DNA from: a virus
Virus record (IMG/VR): IMGVR_UViG_3300013102_000777
Location: 1-38,322 of that record
Length of the DNA stretch: 38,322 bases
Reading direction: 5' to 3' (one strand)
Under the pieces are notes generated by a model. That model was not told the DNA's origin. It did no database searches and worked only from the letters and a program-made list of their open reading frames with translations. The stretch's first letter is position 1. Every line of letters begins with the position of its first letter. The position numbers were made by a program, and so were the translations under genes. Shown piece after piece: positions 1,198-17,460 of the stretch.

Positions 1198-1584
1198 ATG
1201 GAAATGCTCGATGTACCGCTCGATTTAGATCGTCGGTGGGAGTGGATTAAGTACCAATTGCGCGTCCGGGGCACCTCTGGAGCTGTTATAGCTCGGGAGC
1301 TGAGCCTCAACGACCGCGCCATCCGCAGCACCAAGCGCAACGCCTACCCGCGTGTCGAACGTGCCATCGCGTCTGCACTGGGCCTTCAGCCGATTCAGGT
1401 CTGGCCGGAGCGCTGGAACACGGATGGCACCCCAAAAAGGCAGCGACCAAATCGCGCGGAATCTAACGCGAATTCCATACGCGAGAATACCGGATATTGC
1501 CCGGTTAGTGACTTTAACGATCCTAAGGACGAACTTGATAAAGCCAAAAATGGCCAGGTAAATCCGGAGAGCGGCCATGATTAG
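1198..1584 (+). CDS. ner: Ner-like DNA-binding regulator
   Basis: Protein of 128 residues. The first 75 resemble Mu Ner/Nlp: a helix-turn-helix within RRWEWIKYQLRVRGTSGAVI and the following IARELSLNDRAIRST, ending with the typical VWPERW. Ner is the early negative regulator that turns down the early and repressor promoters during lytic growth. The C-terminal 50 residues are polar and unrecognised, making it longer than Mu Ner (75). The ATG at 1198 lacks a close Shine-Dalgarno (AGGA lies 15 bases upstream); an in-frame ATG at 1204 is an alternative. The end overlaps the transposase start by 8 bases, so the two are translationally coupled. Confidence 0.75.
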   Translation: MEMLDVPLDLDRRWEWIKYQLRVRGTSGAVIARELSLNDRAIRSTKRNAYPRVERAIASALGLQPIQVWPERWNTDGTPKRQRPNRAESNANSIRENTGYCPVSDFNDPKDELDKAKNGQVNPESGHD

Positions 1585-3616
1585 CTGGTTCACCGCCCAA
1601 GAACTAGCCGGGCTTCCTGGAATGCCTGGCTCTGCGAGAGCAATACAACTGAAAGGCAAGGAACACTGGCCGGGCCGAAAACGCGTGGGCACCAAGGCAA
1701 CTGAGTACCCGCTAACTGTGCTTCCAGCAGAAACACAGGCTGCTCTGATTGCGAAGGCTCTCCATGTCGATTCCGAAAAAGCCACTGAGGTATCCCCCTC
1801 GGGTCCCGCGAGCGGCTGTGACTGCAAATCAACGTCACGCTTAAACGAAAAGCAAACTCGCGTGATGCTCGCTCGACTCGCGTTCTGTCGGCATATCGAG
1901 CGCATGTGCGCTGTCATGTCTCAGAAAGATGCCATCTCAGAACTGGTACGGCAGGCAGTGGACGGCTCGCTCGACCCGTACCTGCAAGATCGCGTATCAC
2001 TTGCCAACGACCGCATATCTATTGACCGCTCGCTATCTGAAAGAACACTTAAGCGCTGGCTTTCGGTTTGGCGGGCAGCTGATCGAGATGAGATCGCCCT
2101 CGCCCCGCTGCGTCAGCGAGCGAGTCTCGACATGCCAGATTGGTCGATTGCGTTTTTGCGTTGCTACCAACGTCCTACTAAGCCGTCGGTTGCTGCAAGT
2201 TACGCTGAATTTGCCACCGCGTGGACTGGCACGGTGCCGAGCATTCACGCCGTGCAACGCTTCCTTAAAAAGCTGAGCCCAGACGCGCTTAATCGGGGGC
2301 GCATGAGCCTGCAGGACCTCAAAGCGCTGCAACCGTTCCGCCGCCGCTCGACCAAGAATCTCTTTCCGGGGGACGTCTACACAGCCGACGGTCACAAGTT
2401 CGATGCCGAGGTGATCAACCCCATCACCGGCAAGCCGTACCGACCCGAAATCACCACCATTTTGGATGTCGCGACGCGTCGCGTAGTCGGCTTTTCGGTA
2501 GGCGAAGCGGAGTCAGCTATTGGCGTGCTGGACGCGCTGCGAGGAGCCGTTCGCGAGTGCATGTTCGCAATCTTCTACGTCGACAACGGATCGGGCTTCG
2601 CAAACGAGTCTGTTAGAGAGGTCGTGGATCGCCTAGGCGGCACCATGACGCATTCTCTCCCCTACAACAGCCAGGCGCGGGGTCTCTCTGAGCGTGGCCA
2701 CCAAACGATATGGGTGCGAGCTGCAAAGAAAGTGACGAGCTATATCGGCGCCGACATGGACAAGCACGCAGGAACCAAGGTGCATCGGATCGGCCGCAAG
2801 CAGCTTCGGGAGAACGGCAGCACCCGCTTGATACCAGAGTTTGTGGTCTTCATGGATGGCGTTGAGCGCGAGGTGGCTGAGTACAACCAAACACCTCATA
2901 GAGGCCTAGAGAAGATCCGCGACCCGCTGACGGGCAATCTTCGCCATCTTAGTCCCGACGAAGCTTGGCAGCAGGCTATCGACGAAGGCTGGACGCCCAT
3001 GAAGGCATCCGACCGGATGGTCGAAGCATTGATCCGCCCTCAAACCACGCGAACCACTCGACGCGGAGAGATTCAATGGGCTGGAGCCACCTATTTCCTA
3101 AGCGATCTAACGGCCTTTCACGGACAAGAAATTCGCATGGCCTACGACGTTAGAGATGCTGGCCGTGTGTGGGCGTACAGCATTGAAGGCGAGCTAATCG
3201 GAGAAGCCCTGCTCGACGGCAACAGCACTGACTACATGCCAATGACCATGGTTGAGCAAGCGCGTGAGAAGCGCCTGCAAGGTCAGTACAAAAGGGCCAT
3301 CGACAAAGTGGAAACACTGACCGGCAATCGCGTGGAAATGATAGCGCCAACGACCTCGCCAAGCGCAAATCTACCCGCATCGGAGCTTACCGCCGCGCTT
3401 GAATTTGCGAGGGAGATGCAGGCGCAACAGCCCATATTCGAGATCCCTGGAAATGACGTGGAGCGCTACCGGCTCTGGAAAAAGCTAGACGAGCGTCAAG
3501 CTGCGGGCGAGGTATTGAACGCGGATGAGGCTAGATGGTGGGAGCGGTACGCCACTCACCCAGACCTTATTTATCAGCGCGAGCTGATGGAAGGATTCGA
3601 AAAGCACGCGGGCTGA
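1577..3616 (+). CDS. A: MuA-type DDE transposase
   Basis: Transposase of 679 residues (Mu A is 663) that pairs the phage ends, nicks them and joins them to target DNA for integration and replicative transposition. Residues 1-70 form the winged-helix Mu-A N-terminal domain (WFTAQELAGLPGMP). The catalytic RNase-H-like core shows Asp271 in YTADGHKFD, Asp336 in YVDNGSGF and Glu372 in GLSERGHQT, which is a complete DDE triad. The Mu-type beta-barrel domain and a C-terminal tail (MuB/ClpX-interacting in Mu) follow. It starts inside the end of the Ner-like gene. The stop codon lies in the loop of a strong hairpin. The region is less GC-rich than the late genes. Confidence 0.95.
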   Translation: MISWFTAQELAGLPGMPGSARAIQLKGKEHWPGRKRVGTKATEYPLTVLPAETQAALIAKALHVDSEKATEVSPSGPASGCDCKSTSRLNEKQTRVMLARLAFCRHIERMCAVMSQKDAISELVRQAVDGSLDPYLQDRVSLANDRISIDRSLSERTLKRWLSVWRAADRDEIALAPLRQRASLDMPDWSIAFLRCYQRPTKPSVAASYAEFATAWTGTVPSIHAVQRFLKKLSPDALNRGRMSLQDLKALQPFRRRSTKNLFPGDVYTADGHKFDAEVINPITGKPYRPEITTILDVATRRVVGFSVGEAESAIGVLDALRGAVRECMFAIFYVDNGSGFANESVREVVDRLGGTMTHSLPYNSQARGLSERGHQTIWVRAAKKVTSYIGADMDKHAGTKVHRIGRKQLRENGSTRLIPEFVVFMDGVEREVAEYNQTPHRGLEKIRDPLTGNLRHLSPDEAWQQAIDEGWTPMKASDRMVEALIRPQTTRTTRRGEIQWAGATYFLSDLTAFHGQEIRMAYDVRDAGRVWAYSIEGELIGEALLDGNSTDYMPMTMVEQAREKRLQGQYKRAIDKVETLTGNRVEMIAPTTSPSANLPASELTAALEFAREMQAQQPIFEIPGNDVERYRLWKKLDERQAAGEVLNADEARWWERYATHPDLIYQRELMEGFEKHAG

Positions 3617-4394: not shown

Positions 4395-5128
4395 TGGGCA
4401 AATCAGTACGCCTTCGACTGGTTGGTGGCAAAGAACCTCGTCAGCTTATGTGGGAGGCCATCCGTGATCGGCGCGAAAGCTTTAGCGGCGAAGAGGTTGC
4501 CCAAAGCACCGAGCAAGAGCTGGGCACAGTGATGGCCTACATTCGCGCGATGGGGAAAGCCAAGATCATCAAAGCGCTGGATCGAGCAGCCCGTGACAAA
4601 CAACGCTGGGCGCTGATCCTAGACGAAGGTTTAGAACACCCGCGCCTGAATGTTAGGGGTCAGCGCCACGTGCATGGCCAGGCTCTGGAAAACCTGTGGC
4701 GAACGTTGCGCATCATGGGCGAATTGACCGCTGCCGAAGCGGCAGAGGTATCGAGTGTTGGAGGCGTACGTGTCACCCAATCGTATGCAACCAACTACTA
4801 CTCCACGCTTGCCCGTGCTGGTTATGTGATCGCTCGATCCTACGACCACCAGCGCGCTGTCACCTACCGACTGGCACCCAATGGCTATACCGGCCCACGT
4901 CATCCAGTGGTACAGCGCCATGAGTCTATACAGGTCTTCGATCCGAACAAGGATGAGGTGGTCTTCTCCAGAAGACTGGCGGGCGGTGTACCCGTTGAGT
5001 CGGAACCTACTAACGACATGCAGCAAGAGAACCTGCGTATGCGGGCGCTACTAACCGAATTGATGGAGCAACGTGGAGTTACCAGCACTGGGCTACTTCA
5101 ACGAATCCAACTGGAGCTAGCGGAATGA
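4394..5128 (+). CDS. Early protein of unknown function with possible winged-helix segments
   Basis: A 244-residue protein that I do not recognise as a named family. Residues about 10-65 (EVAQSTEQELGTVMAYIRAM) and 90-155 (ELTAAEAAEVSSVGG, then an aromatic SYATNYYSTLARAGYV) look like two winged-helix-type units. The C-terminus (QQENLRMRALLTELMEQRGV) is a probable coiled coil. Proteins of this kind commonly follow MuB in Pseudomonas transposable phages, so a DNA-binding role in replication or regulation is plausible. Its start overlaps the MuB stop and its stop overlaps the next start, so it is part of a tightly coupled early operon. Confidence 0.7.
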   Translation: MGKSVRLRLVGGKEPRQLMWEAIRDRRESFSGEEVAQSTEQELGTVMAYIRAMGKAKIIKALDRAARDKQRWALILDEGLEHPRLNVRGQRHVHGQALENLWRTLRIMGELTAAEAAEVSSVGGVRVTQSYATNYYSTLARAGYVIARSYDHQRAVTYRLAPNGYTGPRHPVVQRHESIQVFDPNKDEVVFSRRLAGGVPVESEPTNDMQQENLRMRALLTELMEQRGVTSTGLLQRIQLELAE

Positions 5129-5496
5129 CCCACGTTGACCTGACCGCCTGGGGCTCGACCCCACCTCAATTCGTCGTACTGCTCGCCGCAGAGGTCCGGG
5201 CCACTGACCGCACCCGCGCCGCGTCCCGGATCGGCATGAGCCGTACCGCCGTCAGCCTGGTGCTGGCCAACAAGTACTCGAGCCCGAGCACGGCTGGTGT
5301 CGAACGTCGCGTGATGGATGTCCTCGGCCGCATTGACTGCATCGCCCTGGGCGAGACCCTGACGGTGGCGCAGTGCCAAACCTTCCGCGACCGGTCCGCG
5401 CCGACGCACAACCCGATGCAGATGCAGCACTGGCGTGCTTGCCAGCATTGCCCCTTCAACCCGAATTGCGCAGGTGCCACCCATGCAACTCACTGA
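5125..5496 (+). CDS. Small HTH regulator with C-terminal Cys cluster
   Basis: A 123-residue protein with a Cro/LacI-like helix-turn-helix at about residues 27-50 (RAASRIGMSRTAVSLVLANK). A Cys-rich tail follows (CQTF, then RACQHCPFNPNC), with four Cys spaced to bind a metal or Fe-S cluster. HTH plus this Cys tail recurs in transposable phage early operons; its targets are unknown. It starts in the overlap with the preceding stop (ATGA), and the next gene starts inside its 3' end. Confidence 0.7.
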   Translation: MTHVDLTAWGSTPPQFVVLLAAEVRATDRTRAASRIGMSRTAVSLVLANKYSSPSTAGVERRVMDVLGRIDCIALGETLTVAQCQTFRDRSAPTHNPMQMQHWRACQHCPFNPNCAGATHATH

Positions 5497-5989
5497 GAAT
5501 CGCTGTGTGCCTAAGATCCAGATCCACATCGCCGGTCGCGGCATGATCCAGTTGCATCGTGAGGGCCAGTGCGTGGGCTTTGCTAAGTCATATCGCAACG
5601 CTGAGCAGCGTGCGGAAGTGCTTGAGCTTTTTTTCGCCAGAAAAGAATCGCTGGGCAGAGCTACGGTAGTTATGACGCTAGATGGCGAGTTTTGTTCAGC
5701 TGATGGGCAATCTAACGCGCAATCTGAGGCGCAGTTCGCAAACCAAGAATGGCTAGTCGAAGCGGTCAGCATCAACCTGTTTCCGATCAAATGCTTTGCT
5801 CGATTGGCTGAGGCGGAGTGCTTTGCTGGACACCTCCGCGCCTACAACCTTGCACGCCCTGCCAGCGGTGATGACGGTCAATGGACGGAGGCACTGATCG
5901 AGTGGTGGGAGAAGCATCCCGCCCAGGCGGCTGCCGACTTCCAGTCGTTCCGCATCCGGGCCGTCCCGGTCCTGGAGGGTTTGCACTGA
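5483..5989 (+). CDS. Early hypothetical protein
   Basis: Unrecognised protein of 168 residues. ATG 5483 is preferred over an in-frame ATG at 5435, because the latter would lie deep inside the upstream gene and would add 16 residues with no recognisable domain. The N-terminal half looks like a beta-rich domain (IQIHIAGRGMIQLHREGQCV) and the C-terminal half is helical and Trp-containing (WTEALIEWWEKHP). It overlaps the upstream gene by 14 bases and shares the TGATG junction with the next gene. Confidence 0.6.
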   Translation: MQLTENRCVPKIQIHIAGRGMIQLHREGQCVGFAKSYRNAEQRAEVLELFFARKESLGRATVVMTLDGEFCSADGQSNAQSEAQFANQEWLVEAVSINLFPIKCFARLAEAECFAGHLRAYNLARPASGDDGQWTEALIEWWEKHPAQAAADFQSFRIRAVPVLEGLH

Positions 5990-6474
5990 TGCGCACCCGC
6001 TGCCCGAACTGTGGCACCACCCTGTCCCTGGATGCGCTGATCGCGCACGACGGCGCCCGTGAGGCCCTGGGCGTGGCCTTCAAACTGTCCGGTCCCGTGG
6101 GTAATGCCTTGATCCGCTACCTCGGCCTATTCCGGCCGGAGTCGCGCGAGCTGACGATGGATCGTGTGGCCAAGCTGCTCGCCGAACTGCTGCCGGACCT
6201 GCAAGCCCAGCGCATTGAGCGCGGTGGCCAGGTGTTCGAAGCGCCCCCGGCCTGCTGGGCCTGGGCCATCGAGCAGGCCCTAGCTGCGCGTGAGGCGGGA
6301 CGACTGGTAACGCCGCTCAAGGGGCATGGCTGGCTGTACCAGGTCATGACCCAGTACCAACCCCAGGCCGGCGCGGCGGTGGTGGTTCGCGAGGATGCCT
6401 CGCGTCTGCCTATCCGTCCCGTGAGCCAGACCACGGCGGCTATGGCGGCGCTGGAGGGGCGTCTCCGTGGTTGA
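5989..6474 (+). CDS. Early hypothetical protein with N-terminal CxxC knuckle
   Basis: A 161-residue protein starting at ATG 5989 in a TGATG overlap. It opens with MRTRCPNCGTTLSLDALIAH, a half zinc-knuckle, followed by a helical domain with a conserved-looking aromatic stretch (LKGHGWLYQVMTQY). I do not recognise the family. Its place between replication and regulatory genes suggests a replication accessory role, but this is position-based inference only. Confidence 0.6.
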   Translation: MRTRCPNCGTTLSLDALIAHDGAREALGVAFKLSGPVGNALIRYLGLFRPESRELTMDRVAKLLAELLPDLQAQRIERGGQVFEAPPACWAWAIEQALAAREAGRLVTPLKGHGWLYQVMTQYQPQAGAAVVVREDASRLPIRPVSQTTAAMAALEGRLRG

Positions 6475-6853
6475 AGAGTGGTTAGAGCGGGCCGTCGTTC
6501 AGGGTTTAAAGGGCCTGGTTGCCCTGCGACTGGACGGTGCCCCCGCCGCCGATGCCATCACGATGACTCTCGACGTCTGGCTGGTGGCCCTGGAGCGGGG
6601 CCGGAGCTGGGAGGAGGACCGCGACGCCTGGCGCATCCAGGCCGCTTTTTCGACGCTGTTCGCCACCTGCGAGCGCTGGCCGGCACCGGCTGCGCTGCTG
6701 CGACAGATGCCGCCGCCGAAGGGCTGGGCGACGCTGCCCAAGCCAGAAGTGAGCGAAGCGCAACGTATCAATGGGCGGCGCCACATCGCCGACATCACGG
6801 CCCGGCTCAAAGGCCTGGCCCCCACGACAGAAACGGAGCAACAACCGCAATGA
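6467..6853 (+). CDS. Early hypothetical protein
   Basis: A 128-residue protein beginning at GTG 6467, inside the end of the preceding gene. It is mostly helical with RWPAPAALLRQMPPP at about residues 70-84, a Trp-Pro pattern seen in some phage replication accessory proteins. No firm family assignment. Its stop overlaps the start of the DUF3164 gene (ATGA). Confidence 0.6.
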   Translation: MVEEWLERAVVQGLKGLVALRLDGAPAADAITMTLDVWLVALERGRSWEEDRDAWRIQAAFSTLFATCERWPAPAALLRQMPPPKGWATLPKPEVSEAQRINGRRHIADITARLKGLAPTTETEQQPQ

Positions 6854-7494
6854 ATACCCCCATCCCGGAAGGTTTCCGCCAAGACGCCAAGGGCCGCCTG
6901 GTGCCCGAGGACATGATCAAACCCATCGACCTGGCTCGCGACGCATTGGTGGCCGAGCTGGTCCAGAAGGCCCAGGCCGTTGCCCAAGTGCTGGCAGAGT
7001 TCAAAGCAAACGCATTCGGCGACATCAAGGCCTTCGTGGATCTGTCAGCCGAGCAGTACGGCGCGAAGTTGGGCGGCAGTAAGGGCAACGTGACCCTGCT
7101 GTCGTTCGACGGGCGTTACAAGGTAGTGCAGGCCGCCCAGGACGCGATCAAGTTCGACGAGCGTCTCCAGGCGGCTCGCGCCCTGATCGATGAATGTCTG
7201 GCCGAGTGGACACAGGATGCCCGGAGTGAGGTGCGGGTGATCGTCAACGAGGCTTTCCGTGCCGACAAGGAGGGTGAGATCAGCACCGGCCGCGTGCTGG
7301 CCCTGCGCCGGCTGGAGATCAGCGATGCACGTTGGCAGCGGGCCATGGCCGCAATTAGCGATGCGGTCCAAGTCGTGGGCTCCAAGAGCTACATCCGCGT
7401 GTATCAGCGCGTGGGGGACTCAGACCAGTACGTTCCGATCCCGCTCGACATCGCCAGCGCCCCCGTGGCGCAGGCCGCTACCACGCTGCACTGA
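6850..7494 (+). CDS. DUF3164 family early protein
   Basis: A 214-residue protein with the DUF3164 layout. It has a polar N-terminus (EGFRQDAKGRLVPEDMIKP), a long helix with LSAEQYGAKLGGSKGNVTLL, a strand pair around SFDGRYKV, then a helical tail ending in SKSYIRVYQRV. Members are standard in the early operons of Mu-like phages of Pseudomonas and relatives. Some database entries carry a misleading sulfate-transporter label. Function is unknown; position suggests replication or host takeover. ATG 6850 starts within the overlap with the gene upstream. Confidence 0.85.
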   Translation: MNTPIPEGFRQDAKGRLVPEDMIKPIDLARDALVAELVQKAQAVAQVLAEFKANAFGDIKAFVDLSAEQYGAKLGGSKGNVTLLSFDGRYKVVQAAQDAIKFDERLQAARALIDECLAEWTQDARSEVRVIVNEAFRADKEGEISTGRVLALRRLEISDARWQRAMAAISDAVQVVGSKSYIRVYQRVGDSDQYVPIPLDIASAPVAQAATTLH

Positions 7495-7535
7495 TTCAGC
7501 ACGTCGCTTACAGAATACGAGAGAGAGAAGTACTC

Positions 7536-7769
7536 ATGTCCAAGTTCACCCTGACTGTCGAAGACACCCCCACTGGCGTCGTTGTCGTTTGCGACAACGA
7601 GCCCCTCATGCACGAGTCGGCCGCTGGTCGGGTTGCTCACTCGATGATGATCAATGCCCGCTTGTTGGACCGTATCCCGCTCCCTGTCACCGCTGGCCGT
7701 CCCGGCTGCGACTGCGAAGCGTGCAAGGCCTACAACGAGCTGCTGGAAACCAATCCCACTATCCACTAA
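7536..7769 (+). CDS. Small hypothetical early protein with CxCxxC motif
   Basis: A 77-residue unrecognised protein. A predicted beta-rich N-terminus (KFTLTVEDTPTGVVVVCDN) is followed by PGCDCEACKAY at about residues 57-67, which could bind metal. A GA-rich ribosome-binding site (GAGAGAGAAG) precedes ATG 7536. Its final His codon and stop form the 5' edge of the first hammerhead ribozyme: the CCAC that can pair with ribozyme loop I lies in the last codons, so translation termination and ribozyme folding compete for the same bases. Confidence 0.65.
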   Translation: MSKFTLTVEDTPTGVVVVCDNEPLMHESAAGRVAHSMMINARLLDRIPLPVTAGRPGCDCEACKAYNELLETNPTIH

Positions 7770-7826
7770 TGCGAAACCGCCCGAGTGGGCGGTCTGCTCG
7801 GCGTGGTGGCCGGGTACTGATGAGCA
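7763..7826 (+). ncRNA. Type II hammerhead self-cleaving ribozyme, copy 1
   Basis: All conserved hammerhead positions are present. CTGATGA lies at 7817-7823 and GAA at 7773-7775, with the A15.1-U16.1 pair at 7776/7793 and cleavage base C17 at 7794. Stem III is 7776-7782 with 7787-7793 (7 bp, GAGT loop). Stem I is 7795-7802 with 7809-7816 (8 bp, two of them G-U, loop GTGGTG). Stem II is open: TGC 7770-7772 pairs with GCA 7824-7826. CCAC 7763-7766 can pair with GTGG 7803-7806 of loop I, like the loop I/II contact known for natural hammerheads. Predicted cleavage falls between 7794 and 7795. An open stem II makes it type II, a class known mainly from bacteria and phages. Confidence 0.88.
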
Positions 7827-7839
7827 GCCGGAGACGGGG

Positions 7840-8247
7840 ATGGAAGAAGCAGATTGGGATGCGCTGAAAGAAATGATGACCATGCCCTGGGGTTCGATGA
7901 AGCTTCAGTGCGATGAGTACGAGCTGACTCTCTGCCAGGAACTGGACGGCAAGCGTAAGCGCTGGGCGACCATGGTTTACGTGAATGGCGTTTTCAATGG
8001 CAAGTGGTCCGCTGCCGAAGACAACAAGCCTACCCATGAAGAGGCCCGCCGATTCCTACGCCCAGTCACCTCGGCGCTGTACTCGAAGAAGGAAATAGAG
8101 GCGACTCGGAAGGTCTGGGGGAAGAGAGAGGCAAACAGACTAACGGAGAGACGGTGGACGTATTTCTCGCCCGTCTGGACCAACTTCAACTCCCTGCGTA
8201 AGCACCTGGTTTCCAATAACACCAGTGTTTCGAGGGTGCTGCACTGA
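7840..8247 (+). CDS. Hypothetical protein encoded between the two hammerhead ribozymes
   Basis: A 135-residue unrecognised protein starting at ATG 7840 with GGAG six bases upstream. The N-terminal half looks beta-rich (SMKLQCDEYELTLCQELDG and WATMVYVNGVF); the C-terminal half is basic and helical (SALYSKKEIEATRKVWGKRE), then WTYFSPVWTNFNSLRKHL. It is the only gene within the 485-nt RNA that would be released by cleavage at 7794 and 8279. A second, out-of-frame AUG in the core of ribozyme 1 (7820) opens a 15-codon ORF that overlaps its start, which could tune translation. Its last codons (CAC TGA) are part of ribozyme 2. Confidence 0.7.
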   Translation: MEEADWDALKEMMTMPWGSMKLQCDEYELTLCQELDGKRKRWATMVYVNGVFNGKWSAAEDNKPTHEEARRFLRPVTSALYSKKEIEATRKVWGKREANRLTERRWTYFSPVWTNFNSLRKHLVSNNTSVSRVLH

Positions 8248-8311
8248 GCGAAACCGCCCCGGCCTGGCCGGGGATGGTCTGCCGGGCGTGGTGGTCCGGT
8301 ACTGATGAGCA
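8241..8311 (+). ncRNA. Type II hammerhead self-cleaving ribozyme, copy 2
   Basis: CTGATGA lies at 8302-8308, GAA at 8250-8252, A15.1-U16.1 at 8253/8278, C17 at 8279. Stem III (8253-8263 with 8267-8278, one bulged A at 8274) is longer and differs in sequence from copy 1. Stem I is 8280-8287 with 8294-8301, 8 bp, again with loop GTGGTG. Relative to copy 1 it carries a compensatory C-G to G-C change (7799/7812 versus 8284/8297) and two half-compensated changes. Stem II is short, only C8249-G8309 and G8248-C8310. CAC 8242-8244 can pair with GTG of loop I. Cleavage is predicted between 8279 and 8280. The AUG of the next gene (8305) lies inside the catalytic core. Confidence 0.85.
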
Positions 8312-8601
8312 GCCAAACGATGACGCAAGAAACTCCAGCCGACCGCAAAAAGCGCCTGGCCCGCAACCGCCAGCAAGCCCGGCGAGACCGGATCAAGGCG
8401 CGCCGCGTGGCCATAGGAGCCGAGCGGTTCACGCTGGAAATGGGTGCCGGCACCCGCGCCGCCCTCAAGCGGATCTGCGAGGCCGGTCAATTCGAAGAGG
8501 ACGCCGAAGCCCTGACGTTGCTGATCCACGGCGCGGCCACCCTGGCCCGTCGTGATCCAGCGGCGTTCGCGGCACTGGTGGATGGGAGGCGGCATGAATA
8601 G
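8305..8601 (+). CDS. Putative ribbon-helix-helix protein whose AUG lies in the hammerhead core
   Basis: A 98-residue protein. The basic N-terminus (RKKRLARNRQQARRDRIKAR) is followed by a likely ribbon-helix-helix fold: strand RFTLEMG, then helices AGTRAALKRICEAG and EEDAEALTLLIHGAA. This suggests a small DNA-binding regulator. ATG 8305 is part of the CTGATGA core of ribozyme 2 and has no good Shine-Dalgarno; an in-frame ATG at 8320 is the only near alternative and also lacks one. Initiation at 8305 therefore excludes the folded ribozyme, while cleavage leaves this AUG 25 bases from the new 5' end. The 3' end overlaps gemA. Confidence 0.6.
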   Translation: MSSQTMTQETPADRKKRLARNRQQARRDRIKARRVAIGAERFTLEMGAGTRAALKRICEAGQFEEDAEALTLLIHGAATLARRDPAAFAALVDGRRHE

Positions 8602-8998
8602 ACGTAACCAGCAGTTGAGCAAGATCCACATTGCCAAGAAAGAGCTGGCCATGGATGACGACAGCTATCGGGCGATGCTGGCACGGGTAGCGGGCGTGAC
8701 CTCGGCCAAGGATCTCGGTCCACGCCAGGTCGGCGCGGTACTCAGCGAGTTCGAGCGGCTGGGCTGGAAGCCGAAGCCCGGCCGGGCCAAGCCGAACGCG
8801 GCGGCAGACCGGCAGAAATTGGTCGGCAAGATCGAGGCGCAACTCGCCGAGGCCAAGCGCCCCTGGGACTATGCCGATGCCCTGGCGCAACGGCTCTACA
8901 AGGTCGAGCGATTGGAGTGGCTCGATGCCAAACAGCTCGGCGGAGTTGTCACGGCCTTGGCCAAAGATGCAGAGCGGCATGGGAGGCCAGGCAAATGA
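8594..8998 (+). CDS. gemA: GemA-like protein (Mu gp16, DUF1018)
   Basis: A 134-residue protein of the Mu GemA/gp16 family. In Mu it affects host gene expression and DNA topology. It shows the usual IHIAKKELAMDDDSYRAMLA opening, a basic linker (KPKPGRAKPN) and WLDAKQLGGVVTALAKDAE near the end. ATG 8594 has GGGAGG at good distance and overlaps the upstream gene by 8 bases. The Mor-type gene starts in its stop codon, which is the conserved gemA-mor order of Mu-like phages. Confidence 0.88.
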   Translation: MNRRNQQLSKIHIAKKELAMDDDSYRAMLARVAGVTSAKDLGPRQVGAVLSEFERLGWKPKPGRAKPNAAADRQKLVGKIEAQLAEAKRPWDYADALAQRLYKVERLEWLDAKQLGGVVTALAKDAERHGRPGK

Positions 8999-9438
8999 GC
9001 AATGGTGAGCTGTTCGAGAACGATGCGGACAAACTGGACCCGGCGCGAGTGCTGGCCAATATGGACGACCCGGCAATCAAGCATCGCTGGGAGGGCACGC
9101 TCAAGGAGATGGTGGAGATCGCCGAGGCCGAGCTAGTCCAGCGACTGGCCGACAATCCTGAGCAGGCAGCGGAACTGGCCCGAGCGGTCGTCTTCGCTAT
9201 CTGCAATACCATGGGGGGCTCGGTGCTTTACCTGCCACGCGGGACGGCTTTACAGAACGCTATTCGTGACGCTGCACTGTTCCGGGACTGGCGGGACCAC
9301 AACATAGGGCCGCTAGAATTGGTGCGTAAGTACAAGATCACTTCCCCGACCGTTTATGCGATCATCGCCCGCCAACGGGCCTTGCATAGACGCAATGAGC
9401 CTGACTTGTTCGGGTTCGGTGAAGGGACTTTACATTGA
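8995..9438 (+). CDS. mor: Mor/C-family transcriptional activator
   Basis: A 147-residue activator. Mor and C of Mu are dimeric proteins that bind imperfect dyads upstream of a poor or missing -35 box and recruit RNA polymerase to middle and late promoters. The central part matches the family (AICNTMGGSVLYLPRGTALQ), as does the C-terminal HTH at about residues 113-132 (LVRKYKITSPTVYAIIARQR). GGGAGG precedes ATG 8995. No second Mor/C gene is seen, so this one protein probably activates the late promoters directly through the three CTTAA-N4-TTAAG dyads. Confidence 0.92.
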   Translation: MSNGELFENDADKLDPARVLANMDDPAIKHRWEGTLKEMVEIAEAELVQRLADNPEQAAELARAVVFAICNTMGGSVLYLPRGTALQNAIRDAALFRDWRDHNIGPLELVRKYKITSPTVYAIIARQRALHRRNEPDLFGFGEGTLH

Positions 9439-9974
9439 AGGGACGATTGCTTTTCGTTGCTGTGGTCATGGCCTACAGCCTGACTACGGTAGGCGCTACC
9501 AGTACGGCGGATGTCGAAAAGGCGGTTAGCGATAAAGAGGCCGCTGTCGAAGCGAAAAGCAATCGAGCCCTGGCCATCAAGTTGGTTGAGAAGTCGCTGA
9601 AGGCATGTCGCGCGCAGGACTGGGCGCAACAATCCGAGGTGATGCATGACATCGACAAAGCGTTGGACCGCCAGCCGGTAAACCATCTCAAATACCGCGC
9701 ACGGTTCGTGTACTCGGCCTGCCGACAAATGCTTCTGGACGTCAACTCTATCAACGCCTCTTGCTTCAACAAGCAACCCTCAGCGAGGGAGCTGGCAGAG
9801 GCAAAGCGCATCCTGAAAGAAGACGCCAGTGAGTGCGCCGCTAATATCCGCAACCCGGATTTGGGTTACGACGACCCGCAGCCAGAAACAGACGAAGAGA
9901 TAACGGACGCGCTCAGGAAGGAAGGGAAGTCGGAAGAGGATATAAAATTTATTCTCGAAGTTAGAAAACTCTAA
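9435..9974 (+). CDS. Secreted hypothetical protein, probable moron
   Basis: A 179-residue protein with a signal peptide (MKGRLLFVAVVMAYSLTTVG, likely cut near residue 21 after GA) and an acidic, helical, Cys-containing mature part. The four Cys of the mature part (in KACRAQD, SACRQM, ASCFNK and SECAAN) could form disulfides. It starts at TTG 9435 inside the mor stop; a later ATG at 9468 would remove most of the signal peptide. It has no counterpart in Mu and ends at a strong terminator just before the first late operator, so it looks like lysogenic or periplasmic cargo at an operon border. Function unknown. Confidence 0.65.
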   Translation: MKGRLLFVAVVMAYSLTTVGATSTADVEKAVSDKEAAVEAKSNRALAIKLVEKSLKACRAQDWAQQSEVMHDIDKALDRQPVNHLKYRARFVYSACRQMLLDVNSINASCFNKQPSARELAEAKRILKEDASECAANIRNPDLGYDDPQPETDEEITDALRKEGKSEEDIKFILEVRKL

Positions 9975-9996
9975 GCCCGCGCAATGCGGGCTTTTT
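9974..9996 (+). terminator. Rho-independent terminator of the early operon
   Basis: AGCCCGC and GCGGGCT form a 7-bp stem with loop GCAAT followed by a T run. It begins at the stop codon of the preceding gene and directly abuts late operator A, so early transcription stops exactly where late transcription control begins. Confidence 0.9.
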
Positions 9997-10016
9997 CTTA
10001 AGCCTTTAAGAAACTC
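9997..10016 (+). promoter_or_regulatory. Late operator A (Mor/C-type dyad), lysis and packaging block
   Basis: CTTAA-GCCT-TTAAG is followed by AAACTC. The same dyad plus AAACTC occurs at 20612 and 33854, each time before a late gene block. Position and dyad design match sites bound by Mor/C activators in Mu; the binding protein is inferred. No good -10 is visible downstream, consistent with an activator-dependent promoter. By analogy this is Plys. Confidence 0.75.
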
Positions 10017-10032
10017 AACCAACTCCCTCCCA

Positions 10033-10071
10033 GCGCGACTCTAGCCCGGTAGTTCTCAACCGGGGTCGCGC
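10033..10071 (+). other. Long leader hairpin next to the first late start codon
   Basis: GCGCGAC 10033-10039 pairs with GTCGCGC 10065-10071, and inside it CCCGGT 10045-10050 pairs with ACCGGG 10059-10064. A 5-base bulge and an 8-base loop remain. It ends one base before ATG 10073, leaving no room for a Shine-Dalgarno. Similar start-site hairpins follow the other two late operators. Confidence 0.6.
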
Positions 10072-10072
10072 A

Positions 10073-10402
10073 ATGTCCGCCACCACTTCCGCAACACCCA
10101 CATCGCCCCGTGCCTGGGCCAGCTTGATTCTTGAAGCTGGCCCCGCCATGCGGGAACAACTGCTGGCGCAATGCCCGGCAGCCTGGCGCGAACTCGTCCT
10201 GGCTCATGTGCGGGCAGGCGATCAGCGCGTCAGTGAGTTCGTCGCAACTCGCGAGCAGTTGCGCCCCCAGGCCAAGCCGACCGCACCCGTGACCATCCCC
10301 TATCGAGAACTACCGCGTCATCGCGGCAACTCGTCCGCTGCGGCGGCCGGGCTTGCTGCGGCCCGTGCCGCCCTCAATCACACCCGCGAGGTTCGCCCGT
10401 GA
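10073..10402 (+). CDS. Hypothetical protein, first gene after late operator A
   Basis: A 109-residue unrecognised protein, Ala- and Arg-rich and probably helical (PRAWASLILEAGPAMREQLL), with a Pro-rich middle. Its ATG follows directly on a strong hairpin and has no Shine-Dalgarno. It overlaps the holin-like gene by 4 bases, so it may be mainly a translated leader for the lysis genes or a regulator of lysis. No signal peptide or membrane segment is seen. Confidence 0.6.
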   Translation: MSATTSATPTSPRAWASLILEAGPAMREQLLAQCPAAWRELVLAHVRAGDQRVSEFVATREQLRPQAKPTAPVTIPYRELPRHRGNSSAAAAGLAAARAALNHTREVRP

Positions 10403-10686
10403 ACTACACCCCTCGGCGTCCCCGCACGCCACGCCTGACTAACTGGAGCCTGATCACATTGGTTCTGCTGGTGCTGCTCTATTCGATTGCCCCGAGCAAG
10501 TTGCCGGTTGTCCTCTATAAGGCCAGCTTGGTCATTGGCGGCGGTGTGCTTGGCTACTGGCTGGATCGGGCGCTGTTCCCCTACGCCCGGCCGGATCGCG
10601 TCATGCGCGTACACCAGCCGTGGGCGGGCATCCGTCGGGCACTGGTCGTCTTGGCCTGCGTCCTCGGCCTGACGCTGGGGCTCTGA
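10399..10686 (+). CDS. Putative holin
   Basis: A 95-residue membrane protein with three hydrophobic segments, at about residues 17-31 (SLITLVLLVLLYSI), 36-52 (VVLYKASLVIGGGVLGYW) and 80-95 (ALVVLACVLGLTLGL), and basic ends. Its size, topology and position directly before the endolysin and spanin genes indicate a holin, which would form the inner-membrane hole at lysis. Start is GTG 10399. The call rests on context and topology rather than on a family signature. Confidence 0.65.
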   Translation: MNYTPRRPRTPRLTNWSLITLVLLVLLYSIAPSKLPVVLYKASLVIGGGVLGYWLDRALFPYARPDRVMRVHQPWAGIRRALVVLACVLGLTLGL

Positions 10687-10688
10687 CC

Positions 10689-11336
10689 ATGCGCCGTCGG
10701 CTAACGCTTCAATCTGCCCTTTGGCTGCTCGCCGCGCCTGTGCTGACGGTGCTTTGCAACGCCATGCCCAGCCCGGCCTACGCCGAGATCCCGGACGACG
10801 CCCAGCAGTACCGCCGCGACCTGACCCGCATTGCACAGGCCGAGTGGGGGCTGGATGCTCCCGTGGCGACCTTCGCCGCACAGGTGCATCAGGAATCGCG
10901 CTGGCGGTTCGACGCCCGGAGCCCCGTGGGTGCGCAAGGCTTGGGCCAGGTGATGCCCACGACCGCCACCTGGCTCGCCGGGCTGTTCCCGGAAACGCTG
11001 GGCGACGTCGAGCCCTACAACCCAGCCTGGTCGCTGATGGCGCTGGTCAGCTACGACCGCTGGCTAGCCGACCGGATCAGGGCACGTACCCCTTGCGAGC
11101 AAGGGGGCATGTTTCTCTCTTCATACAACGGCGGCCTCGGCTGGCTGATCCGCGACCGCAAGTTGGCCTCGGCAAAAGGCGCCGATCCGTTGATCTGGTT
11201 CGGATCGGTCGAGCGACACAACGCGGGACGTTCGGCCGCTGCATTCCGAGAGAACCGGGGCTATCCCCGCCAGATCCTCAAGCGCTGGGAGCCGCTGTAC
11301 GTGGCCGCTGGCTGGGGCAAGGGGCTGTGCTCATGA
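10689..11336 (+). CDS. Endolysin, SLT-type lytic transglycosylase
   Basis: A 215-residue protein with an N-terminal signal or signal-anchor segment (residues 8-24, possible cleavage after AYA at 32), followed by a soluble lytic transglycosylase domain. The catalytic Glu is Glu69 in VHQESRW, the motif GAQGLGQVMP is at 81-90, and a SSYNGGLGWL motif comes later. It would cleave peptidoglycan between MurNAc and GlcNAc at lysis. The N-terminal hydrophobic segment suggests Sec export or a SAR-type endolysin, making a pinholin-like partner possible. ATG 10689 lies just after the holin stop, and its end overlaps the Rz-like gene. Confidence 0.9.
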   Translation: MRRRLTLQSALWLLAAPVLTVLCNAMPSPAYAEIPDDAQQYRRDLTRIAQAEWGLDAPVATFAAQVHQESRWRFDARSPVGAQGLGQVMPTTATWLAGLFPETLGDVEPYNPAWSLMALVSYDRWLADRIRARTPCEQGGMFLSSYNGGLGWLIRDRKLASAKGADPLIWFGSVERHNAGRSAAAFRENRGYPRQILKRWEPLYVAAGWGKGLCS

Positions 11337-11983
11337 GAGACCTGCTCAAGCCCCTGGTGCCCCTGCTGCTCTGGCTGGCCCTGCTCGCACTCATCGTGCT
11401 GGGGCTCCACCTCAACCACCGCGACGGCTACGCCCAGGGCTATGCCGCCGCCTTGACCCAGGGCGAAGCCGACTTGGCCGACCTCAAGCGACAGCACGCC
11501 CAGGAACGGCAGTCCCAGGCCGAAGCAGGCCAAGCCGCTGCCGAGCAGGCTGCCCAACGCCTAGCCGTCGAGGTCCAGCGCGGCAACGACCTGGCTCTGG
11601 CGCTCGATGCCAAAAAGACCGAATTGCGCACCACCGCCGAACGCCTCACCGGAGAAATCGCCCGTGTCACTACCCTTTATCGGCGCGCCCTGGATGCGTC
11701 GCCCGAGCCGCTGCCTGCTGCTGTGTTCACTCTCGGTTTTGGCCGGCTGTGGAACCAGGCCCTCGGCGTCGCCCCCACCAGTGGCGCCGATCTGCCTACC
11801 GGCGCCGCCCCCGGCCGAGCTGATGCGCCGGCCAGCGGAGCCGGCGCTCATGACGATCTCGCCAGCACCCTGACCCCAGCGCTACTGCTCGCCAATCACA
11901 TCCGCAACGCCGAGGCCGCCTCGGCCTGCCGCGCCCAGCTCAACGCCCTCATCGACTGGAACACCACCTATGGACGTCACTGA
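11333..11983 (+). CDS. Rz: Inner-membrane spanin, Rz-like
   Basis: A 216-residue protein with one N-terminal membrane anchor at about residues 5-25 (LLKPLVPLLLWLALLALIVL), then a long Ala/Gln/Glu-rich coiled coil to about residue 125, and a globular tail. This is the architecture of an i-spanin, which joins with an outer-membrane lipoprotein (Rz1) to disrupt the outer membrane. A second frame within it encodes a matching lipoprotein. It is longer than lambda Rz (153), with an extra C-terminal part. The end overlaps the TraR-like gene. Confidence 0.8.
   Translation: MRDLLKPLVPLLLWLALLALIVLGLHLNHRDGYAQGYAAALTQGEADLADLKRQHAQERQSQAEAGQAAAEQAAQRLAVEVQRGNDLALALDAKKTELRTTAERLTGEIARVTTLYRRALDASPEPLPAAVFTLGFGRLWNQALGVAPTSGADLPTGAAPGRADAPASGAGAHDDLASTLTPALLLANHIRNAEAASACRAQLNALIDWNTTYGRH
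11694..11873 (+). CDS. Rz1: Outer-membrane spanin lipoprotein, Rz1-like, nested in Rz
   Basis: A 59-residue protein in a different frame, wholly inside the Rz-like gene. ATG 11694 gives a short basic start, a hydrophobic stretch and a lipobox LAGC with Cys19, followed by a Pro-rich mature chain (PSASPPPVAPICLPAPPP). This is the classic Rz1 design: a small Pro-rich lipoprotein bridging to Rz across the periplasm. The same open frame extends upstream to 11607, but that start would spoil the signal peptide. Confidence 0.85.
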   Translation: MRRPSRCLLLCSLSVLAGCGTRPSASPPPVAPICLPAPPPAELMRRPAEPALMTISPAP

Positions 11984-12182
11984 CTACGCCTCCGACCTGG
12001 AAGAAGCCCGCCGCGAGGCCGCGCTCGATGCCCACCGTGCCGCCCAGGCACTCCACGCCGGCCCGTCGGCGACCCACTGCGAAGGCTGCGGCGAGGCCAT
12101 TCCCGAGGCGCGCCGGGTCGTAGTGCCAGGTGTGGTGCGCTGCGTCGCCTGCCAGGGCTATCAAGAGCGGATGGCGCGCTGA
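11970..12182 (+). CDS. TraR/DksA-type C4 zinc finger protein
   Basis: A 70-residue protein with an N-terminal helix (EEARREAALDAHRAAQAL) and a C4 finger: Cys37, Cys40, Cys58 and Cys61 in CEGCGEAIPEARR and VRCVACQ. TraR-type proteins bind the RNA polymerase secondary channel and mimic DksA-ppGpp. Such genes are common between the lysis and packaging genes of Mu-like phages. It overlaps both neighbours, so it is late-expressed with lysis proteins. Confidence 0.88.
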   Translation: MDVTDYASDLEEARREAALDAHRAAQALHAGPSATHCEGCGEAIPEARRVVVPGVVRCVACQGYQERMAR

Positions 12183-12514
12183 TGACGACCATTGAGATTC
12201 CGGTGTGGCAGCTGGCCTTAGGGGGCGTGAGCCTGCTGGGCTCGTTCGGCGCCCTGTTCCGCCTGCTGCTGCTCCAGACCGAGCGCCGGCTTGATCAGCG
12301 CTTCGCCGCCATGGACGAGCGCTACAAGGCCGTGGCCTTGGACTCCGAGCGCCTGCGCCAGGTTGAGCTAGGGGTGGAGCGCCTGCGCGGCGAGATGCCG
12401 CTGCACTACGTCCGCCGTGAGGACTACGTGCGTAACCAGACCGTCATCGAAGCCAAGCTCGACGCTGTGGCCCTGAGACTTGAAAACGCCCAGTTGAAAG
12501 GAGCGCGCCAATGA
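12182..12514 (+). CDS. Membrane-anchored coiled-coil protein
   Basis: A 110-residue protein with one N-terminal hydrophobic segment at about residues 8-30 (WQLALGGVSLLGSFGALFRL) followed by a charged coiled coil (ERLRQVELGVERLRG). It occupies the position of Mu gp25 before the gp26- and gp27-like genes. The function is unknown; a membrane role in lysis or assembly is only a guess. Start overlaps the previous stop in TGATG. Confidence 0.6.
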   Translation: MTTIEIPVWQLALGGVSLLGSFGALFRLLLLQTERRLDQRFAAMDERYKAVALDSERLRQVELGVERLRGEMPLHYVRREDYVRNQTVIEAKLDAVALRLENAQLKGARQ

Positions 12515-12825
12515 ACATGATTGACCCGGCCAAGACGCGGCGCGAATCCCTGCGCTGGTATTTGCTGCTGACCCTCAACACCAGCCGCCCCGTAGACCCT
12601 CATGAGGCGGTGGTGCTGTCTACCATCCAGGGCATCTATCCCGATGCCACCACCATGGAAATTCGGCGCGAGCTGGACTATCTGGCCGACCGCTCTCTAG
12701 TGACGCTGAACAAGCAGCCGAACGGCGTCTGGATCTGCGGGCTCACCCACTACGGCGTGGACATCGCGGAGTACACCATCGAATGCCGGCCGGGTATCGC
12801 CCGCCCGGAAAAGTATTGGGGCTGA
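12511..12825 (+). CDS. Mu gp26-like winged-helix protein
   Basis: A 104-residue protein with a winged-helix look: helix RESLRWYLLLTLNTSRP, recognition-like helix ATTMEIRRELDYLADRSLVT, then a beta wing VWICGLTHYGVDIAEY. It sits where Mu encodes gp26, ahead of the small terminase. Likely DNA-binding; the role in packaging or regulation is not established from the sequence. Confidence 0.65.
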   Translation: MNMIDPAKTRRESLRWYLLLTLNTSRPVDPHEAVVLSTIQGIYPDATTMEIRRELDYLADRSLVTLNKQPNGVWICGLTHYGVDIAEYTIECRPGIARPEKYWG

Positions 12826-12826
12826 C

Positions 12827-13339
12827 ATGCCGCCCCGCTCAAAGGTGGCCGGCCTCCCGGCCCAGGTGAAAGCCTGGCTCGATCAGGCGCTGGTCGAGTC
12901 GAACTTTTCCGGCTACGAGGCCCTGTCGGCCGAGCTGGAGGCGCGTGGCTACCAGATCGGCAAGAGTGCTTTGCACCGCTATGGGTCCGGGTTCGAGGAC
13001 AAGCTGGCCGCGCTCAAGCTTTCGTCCGAGCAGGCCAAGGCGGTCGTCCAGGCCGCACCCGACGACGAGGGCGCCGTCAACGAAGCGCTGATGCGCCTGG
13101 TCCAGGAACACCTGTTCAAGCTGCTGATGGCCGAGGGCGGCAAGATCGATCTGCCCAAGGTGGCGAAGGCGGTCGCCGAGCTGGGCCGGGCGAGCGTCGT
13201 CCAGGCCAAATGGAAAGCTGAGGTCCGTGCCCGTGCCGAGGCGGCAGCGGCCAAGGTTGATCAAATCGCCAAGAAAGGTGGGCTGAACGCCGAGACCGTG
13301 GCCGAGATCCGCCGCGAGATCCTGGGGGTGGCCTCGTGA
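12827..13339 (+). CDS. Small terminase subunit-like protein (Mu gp27, DUF3486)
   Basis: A 170-residue protein with a typical DUF3486 start (RSKVAGLPAQVKAWLDQAL) and a predicted HTH including ELEARGYQIGKSALHRYG at about residues 40-57, followed by a long Ala/Lys-rich helical region. In Mu this gene precedes gp28 and is thought to recognise the phage pac end. Here it is separated from the large subunit by a methyltransferase gene that overlaps both. Confidence 0.85.
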   Translation: MPPRSKVAGLPAQVKAWLDQALVESNFSGYEALSAELEARGYQIGKSALHRYGSGFEDKLAALKLSSEQAKAVVQAAPDDEGAVNEALMRLVQEHLFKLLMAEGGKIDLPKVAKAVAELGRASVVQAKWKAEVRARAEAAAAKVDQIAKKGGLNAETVAEIRREILGVAS

Positions 13340-14085
13340 GCCAGAGCCCCAATGCATTGCACCAGGGCGATGCTATGCAGGTGCTGCGGTCGCTGGAGAC
13401 CAATTCACATGATGCCCTGATTACCGACCCGCCGTATTCCAGCGGTGGCTTGCACGTTGGGGCGCGTCAGCAGGCGCCATGCACGAAGTACATACAGAGT
13501 GGCGGCCAGACGCGGCACGCTGAATTTACAGGCGATAACCGTGACCAGCGCTCCCAGACGCTTTGGTGCACCCTCTGGTTGCTGGAGTGCTTCCGCATCC
13601 TGCGCGAAGGCTCGCCGGTCTGCCTATTCACCGACTGGCGCCAGCTGCCCATGACGACTGACGCGCTCCAGGCGGCCGGCTTCACCTGGCGCGGAATCGC
13701 AGTATGGGACAAGACAGAAGGCGTTCGGCCACAGAAGGGCCGCTTTCGCGCCCAGGCGGAATACATCGTTTGGGGCAGCAAGGGTGGGCTGCCGATGGAT
13801 CGCCCAGCCCCCATCTTGCCGGGGGTCTTCCGCGAGCCGATACGCCGAAACGACAAGTTCCACATGACCGGCAAGCCCACCGATCTGATGCGCCAGGTGG
13901 TGAAGATCTGCGAGCCGGGTGGCCGCATCCTTGATCCCTTCGCCGGAAGCGGCACGACCTTGGTCGCGGCTGGCCTGGAAGGCTACGCCTGGACCGGAAT
14001 CGAACTGACGGAGTATTACCACCAGGTCAGCGGCCAGCGCCTGCAGGAGATCGTGGCCCCCTTCGAACTGGAGGGTAGCCAGTGA
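13336..14085 (+). CDS. DNA adenine/cytosine-N4 methyltransferase
   Basis: A 249-residue Type II-like DNA methyltransferase. Catalytic motif IV is TDPPY at residues 30-34 and comes first; the SAM-binding motif I is DPFAGSGTT starting at Asp200. This order is that of beta-class amino-methyltransferases (N6-adenine or N4-cytosine). No cognate endonuclease is seen, so it is an orphan enzyme, likely protecting phage DNA from restriction before packaging. It sits between the terminase subunits, with 4-base overlaps on both sides and a GTG start, so it is co-translated with packaging. Mu instead uses the Mom modification, encoded at the right end. Confidence 0.9.
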   Translation: MSQSPNALHQGDAMQVLRSLETNSHDALITDPPYSSGGLHVGARQQAPCTKYIQSGGQTRHAEFTGDNRDQRSQTLWCTLWLLECFRILREGSPVCLFTDWRQLPMTTDALQAAGFTWRGIAVWDKTEGVRPQKGRFRAQAEYIVWGSKGGLPMDRPAPILPGVFREPIRRNDKFHMTGKPTDLMRQVVKICEPGGRILDPFAGSGTTLVAAGLEGYAWTGIELTEYYHQVSGQRLQEIVAPFELEGSQ

Positions 14086-15665
14086 CCGCCACCCGCTCCG
14101 CCATCCCCTACCAGCGCTCCCCCCTGGCCGACATCACCAGCGTCGGCCAGATCGTCGACGTGCCAGCGGTGCTGCTCGACTATCAAAAGGGCTGGATCGG
14201 CATTCGTGCCCCGCTCAAGGTTGGTGAAAAGAGCCGCCGAATCGGCCTGACCTGGGCCGAGGCCGCCGATAACGTCCTGGTCGCCGCCTCGGCGAAGTCG
14301 GCTGGCGGGATGAACGTCTATTACCTGGGCTACAACCAGGACATGACGGTTGAGTACATCCAGGCCTGTGCCATGTGGGCGCGGGCCTTCAACTACGCGG
14401 CCGGCGAGATAGAGGAAGGCATATGGCCGGACTCCGACCCGGATAAGCACATCAAGACGTACACCATCACATTCCCCAGCGGCCAGCGCATCGTGGCGCT
14501 GACAAGCCGGCCAAGCAACCTGCGCGGTCGCCAGGGTATCGTCGTGATCGATGAGGCGGCCTTCCATGCCGACCTGGCCGAGCTGCTGAAGGCGGCCTTG
14601 GCGCTACTGATCTGGGGTGGTGAGGTCCATGTGATCAGCACCCACGATGGCACCGAGAACGCCTTTAACGAGCTGGTCGAGGAGATCCGCGCGGGTAAGC
14701 GTAAGGGCGTGGTTTTCCGTTGCACCTTTCGCGAAGCCGTGGCCGATGGCCTGTACACCCGCGTGTGCCTGCGCAAGGGCATCCCCCACGTCCAGGCCGA
14801 GGAAGACGCCTGGGTCCAGGACGTCTACGGCTTCTATGGCGAGGCGGCCAGCGAGGAATTGGACTGCATCCCGAGCCAGGGCGGCGGCGCCTATTTGTCC
14901 CTCGCCCTGGTCGAGTCCCGCACTAGCCGCGAGGTGCCGGTGCGGCGCCTTGCGTACCCCCAGGGCTATGAGACGGCGCCGGAGTACAGCCGCCTGGCCG
15001 ACTCCCTGGAGTGGTGCGAGCGCGAGCTGCGGCCGCTGCTGGATGCCCTACCAACCCAGGGCGTCCAGTCGTTCTATGGGATGGACTTCGCCCGCTCGGG
15101 CGACCTGTCGGTCATCTGGCCGCTGATCAAGGCCCAGGATCTGCGCAAGGGCACGCCCTTTACCGTCGAGCTGCGCAACGTGCCCTTCAAGCAGCAGGAG
15201 CAGATCCTCTTCTACCTGGTCCGCCGCCTGCCTAACTTCCTCAAGGGCGCCCATGACGCCCGAGGCAACGGCCAGCAGATCGCCGAGAGCGCGGCGGTGG
15301 AGTTCGGTCACAACCGCATCGAGCAGGTCATGCTCACCGAGGGCTGGTATCGCGACAACATGCCCCCGTTCAAGGCCGCGCTTGAGGACGACACCTTGCA
15401 CGGCATCCCGGCCGACCAGGACGTCACAAGCGACATCCGCGCTTTCCGGGTCGTGAAAGGTGTCGCCCGCATCCCCGAGCAACGCACCACGGAGAAAGGC
15501 GGCGCCAAGCGCCACGGTGACGCCGGGGTGGCCCTGGTGCTGGCCGACTTCGCCAGCCGCCAGGAAGTGGAAATCTTCGAACACCACCGTGTTCCGCCCA
15601 ACGCCGTGCATGATCGCCAGATCAAGCGCGGGGCCGGCTGGAACCAACAGAAAGGCATCTGGTAA
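14082..15665 (+). CDS. Large terminase subunit (Mu gp28)
   Basis: A 527-residue packaging motor and nuclease. The ATPase part shows Walker B VVIDEAAF with Asp157 and Glu158 and a downstream HVISTHDGTENAF motif. The Walker A near residues 46-54 (LKVGEKSRR) is non-canonical, as is frequent in this family. The C-terminal nuclease domain begins at YGMDFARSGD with Asp335. GTG 14082 overlaps the methyltransferase stop. In Mu, gp28 with gp27 packages headfuls starting in host DNA left of the phage. Confidence 0.9.
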   Translation: MTATRSAIPYQRSPLADITSVGQIVDVPAVLLDYQKGWIGIRAPLKVGEKSRRIGLTWAEAADNVLVAASAKSAGGMNVYYLGYNQDMTVEYIQACAMWARAFNYAAGEIEEGIWPDSDPDKHIKTYTITFPSGQRIVALTSRPSNLRGRQGIVVIDEAAFHADLAELLKAALALLIWGGEVHVISTHDGTENAFNELVEEIRAGKRKGVVFRCTFREAVADGLYTRVCLRKGIPHVQAEEDAWVQDVYGFYGEAASEELDCIPSQGGGAYLSLALVESRTSREVPVRRLAYPQGYETAPEYSRLADSLEWCERELRPLLDALPTQGVQSFYGMDFARSGDLSVIWPLIKAQDLRKGTPFTVELRNVPFKQQEQILFYLVRRLPNFLKGAHDARGNGQQIAESAAVEFGHNRIEQVMLTEGWYRDNMPPFKAALEDDTLHGIPADQDVTSDIRAFRVVKGVARIPEQRTTEKGGAKRHGDAGVALVLADFASRQEVEIFEHHRVPPNAVHDRQIKRGAGWNQQKGIW

Positions 15666-17400: not shown

Positions 17401-17460
17401 GTCTTTCTCCTTACGTCATGGCTTTGTCGCTAGATGTACACCAAATAAAAGGTATAGCAG

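Follow-up and report, generated by a model that had tools for sequence, protein, structure and literature searches.

Type II hammerhead ribozymes have been described by Perreault et al. (2011, PMC3088659), who reported a pseudoknot in this class, shown by mutation in another member to speed cleavage, and a frequent occurrence of a stem II of 2 bp. Other tandem prophage hammerheads self-cleave in vitro, and the one from A. tumefaciens does so in E. coli. The same authors had already put forward the cutting of long phage transcripts into gene-length mRNAs, and called the precise functions of hammerheads in phages unclear. Earlier work cited in a 2023 paper (PMC10085705) found that the genes most strongly associated with bacterial hammerhead and twister ribozymes are those of Mu-like phages; the paper itself gives the reason for the ribozyme-gene associations as still unknown. 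In P. aeruginosa Mu-like phages (the D3112 group, DMS3, PaMx73 and others), variable regions and accessory early genes were described by Cazares et al. (2014, PMC4378225), in whose account ribozymes do not appear and no flanking sequence common to the regions was recognised.

The DNA analyzed here, referred to as the window, spans the whole of a virus record (38,322 bases). The phage is Mu-like as judged by its gene content, since the record carries a Mu-type transposase, DUF3164, GemA and Mor. Two matches to the Rfam family RF02276 (Hammerhead_II) were found on the plus strand, both scoring far above the cut-off of 37: copy 1 at 7769-7833 (73.3 bits, E 1.3e-13) and copy 2 at 8246-8318 (65.8 bits, E 1.1e-11). 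Copy 2 is located in the early operon, just 5' of phrog_4093-gemA-mor. A preliminary description had placed a second hammerhead at 8241-8311. The element itself was identified correctly, whereas its 3' end fell 4 nt short, because positions 8312-8315 form the pseudoknot strand that pairs with loop I. A permissive Rfam search of positions 5000-12500 yielded, beyond copies 1 and 2, only a sub-threshold snoRNA match, and an RF02276 search of 14 control genomes gave zero matches. A hammerhead descriptor returned 183 matches in the loci compared versus 2 in shuffled copies of that DNA; these counts and the Rfam scores rule out a chance origin of the element. When GTDB genomes were scanned with the core pattern, the matches were mostly due to chance, and few survived the pairing filter. 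Folding energy (z -1.5 and -1.3) is not convincing by itself. Hence, the hammerhead assignment is based on the fixed core, the Rfam score and covariation rather than on folding energy.

Table 1. Coordinates of genes and ribozyme elements in the window and of the 24-ribozyme array.
Feature	Position	Strand	Remarks
Mu-type transposase	1577-3616		
DUF3164 gene	6478-7494		
Gene 5' of copy 1, 77 aa	7536-7769	+	weak phrog_3652 match, E 0.00036
Copy 1 stem II	7771-7772/7824-7825	+	
Copy 1 GAA	7773-7775	+	
Copy 1 stem-loop III	7776-7793	+	
Copy 1 C17	7794	+	
Copy 1 stem-loop I	7795-7816	+	
Copy 1 CUGAUGA core position	7817-7823	+	
Copy 1 tail	7826-7830	+	
Gene between copies 1 and 2, 135 aa	7840-8247	+	phrog_5671, hypothetical
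CAC UGA, last (His) codon and stop of upstream gene	8242-8247	+	ORF end at 8247
Copy 2 stem II, 5' strand GC	8248-8249	+	pairs with 8309-8310
Copy 2 core GAA (G12 A13 A14)	8250-8252	+	invariant among relatives
Copy 2 stem-loop III	8253-8278	+	fold; single bulged A at 8274; outer pairs covary
Copy 2 predicted cleavage site, GUC^U	8279-8280	+	C17 (8279)/8280; hammerhead anatomy
Copy 2 stem-loop I, 8 bp	8280-8301	+	hexaloop GUGGUG 8288-8293; 98% paired, double changes at 8/8 pairs
Copy 2 loop I UGGU, pseudoknot strand 1	8289-8292	+	pairs with 8312-8315
Copy 2 core CUGAUGA	8302-8308	+	near invariant among relatives
Copy 2 stem II, 3' strand GC	8309-8310	+	
Copy 2 3' tail GCCA, pseudoknot strand 2	8312-8315	+	whole tail 8311-8315
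Gene 3' of copy 2	8305-8601	+	phrog_4093
GemA	8594-8998	+	PF06252, E 5e-26
Mor, middle-operon activator	8995-9438	+	PF08765, E 9.5e-21
24-ribozyme array, small genes alternating	L320 (G004:C1:8000-19500), contig 9932-17520	-	

The elements of copy 2 follow the order stem II-GAA-III-C17-I-CUGAUGA-stem II, with stems I and III closed by loops and stem II open. The conserved core is complete, comprising CUGAUGA (8302-8308), GAA (8250-8252), the A8253-U8278 pair (A15.1-U16.1) and C8279 (H17), and covariation was found in stems I and III. By these features copy 2 is assigned to the type II hammerhead ribozymes, an already described kind. As had been noted from the letters alone, its stem II consists of 2 bp (8248-8249 with 8309-8310), stem III still pairs (8253-8278), and stem I differs from that of copy 1, with U-G in copy 1 and C-G in copy 2 at pair 4, a full swap from C-G to G-C at pair 5 and a change from G-C to G-U at pair 7, all of them paired. 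Stem III contains one bulged A at 8274. The differences between the copies are not, however, confined to paired positions as had been stated, for loop III length, the spacer 5' of stem II and the tail 3' of it differ as well. In the structure line of RF02276 the stem II pairs look offset by a single base (model positions 3-57, G-G), unlike stem II in the relatives, which pairs C-G and G-C. For the phrog_4093 gene, one in-frame ATG (8305) falls within CTGATGA of the ribozyme core, and the family match sets in at the following ATG (8320).

The differences between the two copies had been taken to argue for selection on RNA structure, a view that would fail if stem changes in homologous loci broke pairing as often as they kept it. 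Sequences came from 53 gemA relatives and from viral contigs matching the core pattern. An alignment of 55 gapless rows, thinned at 86% identity and with loop III omitted, had 97.9% of its cells paired versus 72.2% after shuffling, with changes on both sides at 15 of 20 pairs. The covariation score was 0.669, compared to 0.187 for shuffled and at most 0.135 for slid alignments. For this alignment and for a first covariation table the descriptor had required three outer stem I and four stem III pairs, so that the outer pairs were partly selected for; it did not select for pairs 4-8 of stem I, pairs 5-6 of stem III or the pseudoknot. Stem II was 100% paired in the 55 sequences and almost invariant, and hence gives no covariation signal. 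The selection bias of the descriptor is cleared for stem I by a pairing-blind set of 147 matches to a regular expression that fixed only the core and the loop letters GTG, pairing being ignored. Here, stem I pairs 1-8 were paired in 141-147 of the 147 sequences (shuffled means 64-115). Among 75 distinct stem I strand pairs, 290 cells differ from copy 2; pairing is kept in 274 of these, 165 with both sides changed relative to copy 2, and broken in 16, the sequences sharing descent and the cells not being independent events. Relatives chosen blind to pairing thus keep it in 94% of changed stem I pairs, whereas random re-pairing gave 37% (500 trials, maximum 45%). Both this comparison and the covariation statistics, which the preliminary description had proposed as a check, support the view that the predicted hammerhead is under selection for RNA pairing. 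The core was nearly invariant among relatives, although the search pattern itself had fixed part of it.

With so short a stem II, activity had been suspected to depend on a loop contact, with CAC as the partner of the loop. The need for a contact is plausible; CAC as the partner is wrong, as loop I pairs with the 3' tail. Among the relatives, 106 combine a stem I of 22 nt with a short stem II; in these, positions 2-5 of loop I were paired with tail positions 7-4 in 91, 98, 95 and 96%, respectively, and no other register had four such neighbouring pairs. Compensatory combinations of loop and tail were observed (GTCG/GCAGCG, GTAG/GCAGCT, GTTG/GCAGCA and GTGT/GCAGAC), with double changes at two of the four pairs. 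In copy 2, UGGU (8289-8292) and GCCA (8312-8315) would form 4 bp; the corresponding strands of copy 1 are UGGU (7804-7807) and GCCG (7827-7830). The comparison shows selection to maintain a predicted pseudoknot between loop I and the 3' tail. A contact between CAC and the loop GUG was rejected: CAC occurred in 32 of 93 GTG-loop relatives versus 24 expected by shuffling, and in a register fixed at the copy 2 spacing, in which the CAC of copy 1 lies one column off, 60.0% of the positions were paired versus 58.4% after shuffling, with no covariation. In both copies CAC is the final codon of the upstream gene, adjoining its stop, rather than a conserved part of the ribozyme, and CAY was present directly 5' of a stop codon in 35 of the 93 relatives.

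We consider it most likely, with a probability of about 70%, that the ribozymes serve to divide the early transcript into separate mRNAs, each cut end carrying a hairpin. The stem-loop fold and the pseudoknot are kept by selection. Judging by the hammerhead class, the RNA would cut itself after GUC (8279). Stem I and stem III are each closed by a loop in type II hammerheads, and the cut would therefore fall between two local hairpins, the upstream mRNA ending in stem III and the downstream mRNA starting with stem I. A polycistronic transcript would in this way be split into individual mRNAs, and the hairpins at the newly formed ends could protect both pieces from exonucleases and from 5'-end-dependent decay. 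Protected ends would let the phage insert any gene at this site, its mRNA being uncoupled from the neighbours. The ribozyme lies between a stop codon and a ribosome-binding site, by which gene and ribozyme would act as a module, and related phages exchange genes with break points at the ribozyme. Against a cutting function, translation could block folding of the ribozyme. Each complete D3112-like genome searched has one ribozyme, and its transcript would consequently be cut at one place only. The Mu-like phage B3 gave zero RF02276 matches, so that the function would not be essential to Mu-like phages.

Gene exchange at the ribozyme edges is seen in sequence comparisons. The window and locus L245 are 87-88% identical on both sides of a differing gene, which between the ribozymes is phrog_5671 in the window and a DUF2786/DUF7168 gene (phrog_421) in L245. 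Homology ends at the end of copy 1 and restarts ~9 nt 5' of copy 2; copy 2 is identical in both, while the adjoining downstream sequence is 88% identical. Locus L244 (3640-3760) contains a single hybrid ribozyme, in which body and stem I match copy 1 and the sequence that follows is that of copy 2; the intervening gene is absent. Such an arrangement would be expected if the two copies had recombined, or it may represent the state prior to insertion. One type II hammerhead each, just 5' of the gemA region, was found in the laboratory P. aeruginosa phages D3112 (L308), DMS3 (L003), JBD30 (L307), JBD24 (L312) and LPB1 (L314), the records of which contain no ribozyme annotation. The upstream gene and the ribozyme of the Casadabanvirus phages D3112, DMS3, MP22, JBD30 and others are common to Meadow, HW12, JBD69 and PaMx73 and also to JBD24, but the next gene is unrelated. 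Identity between JBD24 and DMS3 stops at the ribozyme tail. Between JBD24 and LPB1 it starts at stem II, ribozyme and next gene being common and the preceding sequence not. The break points are located a few bases at most from the stem II strand or from the tail. Comparison of the exchanged genes with defence-gene models gave no match. Junctions with a ribozyme were broken in 61% of phage pairs versus 26% for other gene junctions, although the pairs are not independent, the independent break events are few and other junctions break too. These sharp breaks in homology at the ribozyme edges, the break fractions of 0.61 and 0.26 and the L244 hybrid would also be accounted for if the ribozyme persisted mainly as a site of recombination or cassette swapping at the DNA level, with little effect on expression. 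We regard this as unlikely, since the compensatory changes in stems and pseudoknot lower DNA identity yet keep RNA pairing, which selection for DNA homology would not favour, and since breaks are found at other junctions as well.

The position of the ribozymes relative to genes was surveyed in 154 elements with an upstream ORF, the genes being picked mechanically so that individual cases may be wrong. The stop codon ends 1-7 nt 5' of GAA in 92 of the 154 elements, most commonly at 2-3 nt (54/154). A ribosome-binding site follows 3' of the tail, and most starts lie 15-31 nt from the start of the tail. In the window, the stop codon of the gene preceding copy 1 directly adjoins the ribozyme. Because the ribozyme sits between the stop of one gene and the ribosome-binding site of the next, gene and ribozyme appear to behave as a module, in anatomy as observed and in function by implication. 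Some start codons and ribosome-binding sites overlap core and tail or follow them immediately, such as the AUG at 8305 in the core of copy 2 and the start in DMS3 a few bases 3' of the tail, and the tail takes part in the pseudoknot. This would fit a hammerhead-shaped regulator, the fold of which hides or exposes the downstream start site, cleavage acting as a switch or being unneeded. Such a regulator is quite improbable, however, as most downstream starts keep the 15-31 nt distance and have their own ribosome-binding site, and the core nucleotides needed for chemistry are nearly invariant, even if the search pattern fixed part of the core. That copy 2 is a decayed, inactive relic kept by descent, as its bulged stem III and an Rfam score below that of copy 1 might suggest, is very improbable given an intact core, identity with copy 2 of L245 next to downstream sequence that is 88% identical, and pairing kept in 94% of changed stem I pairs.

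A pattern in keeping with cutting of the transcript was found in another virus record (IMGVR_UViG_3300017605_000570, the record of locus L103; 57,338 bases), which contains 24 consecutive RF02276 matches, all on the same strand, and carries tail sheath and GpA-type terminase genes. In 22 of the 23 gaps one ORF is present, its start 16-23 nt 3' of the core and its end 1-7 nt 5' of the following GAA, the ORF starts having been picked among few candidates to fit the gap. This layout is the one expected if each ribozyme separates two mRNAs. Other virus records contain up to 9 RF02276 ribozymes. A search of open-licence papers gave no description of a long run of hammerheads alternating with phage genes. 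Short matches to the array (~62 nt) are present in unannotated stretches of the Streptomyces phages Marav and Salutena and the Rhodobacter phage RcWaterboi (OQ995441.1, MT708548.1 and MW677528.1), which are possibly further hammerheads. More tentatively, type II hammerheads may be the joints of RNA-defined cassettes, each comprising a ribosome-binding site, a gene, a stop and a ribozyme, which are swapped, lost or stacked (up to 24 in one phage). If so, the ribozyme would offer homology for recombination and also give any inserted gene its own mRNA with both ends in hairpins, whatever the neighbours.

Akin to the type II hammerheads of Perreault et al. (PMC3088659), the elements described here have the same topology and core, a 2-bp stem II and the pseudoknot between loop I and the 3' tail, and there is no structural difference. 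The intergenic position in prophages, the presence of several copies flanking changing genes and the proposal of transcript cutting are likewise common to both. The ribozyme family and its setting among prophage genes were thus already known in outline. Added here are the fit between stop codon and ribosome-binding site, the exact module boundary in named P. aeruginosa phages together with the break points there, and the long array of 24 ribozymes, a natural case of a gene run in which almost all genes are paired with a ribozyme each. As the same ribozyme marks the boundary of exchanged genes at one site in D3112, DMS3, JBD30 and others, the question of its function becomes testable in well-used phages. 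Compared to the associations reported in PMC10085705, gene order and exchange points are given here for the gemA-mor site, and in comparison to the variable regions of Cazares et al. (PMC4378225), one variable site 5' of gemA is now seen to be bounded by a predicted hammerhead.
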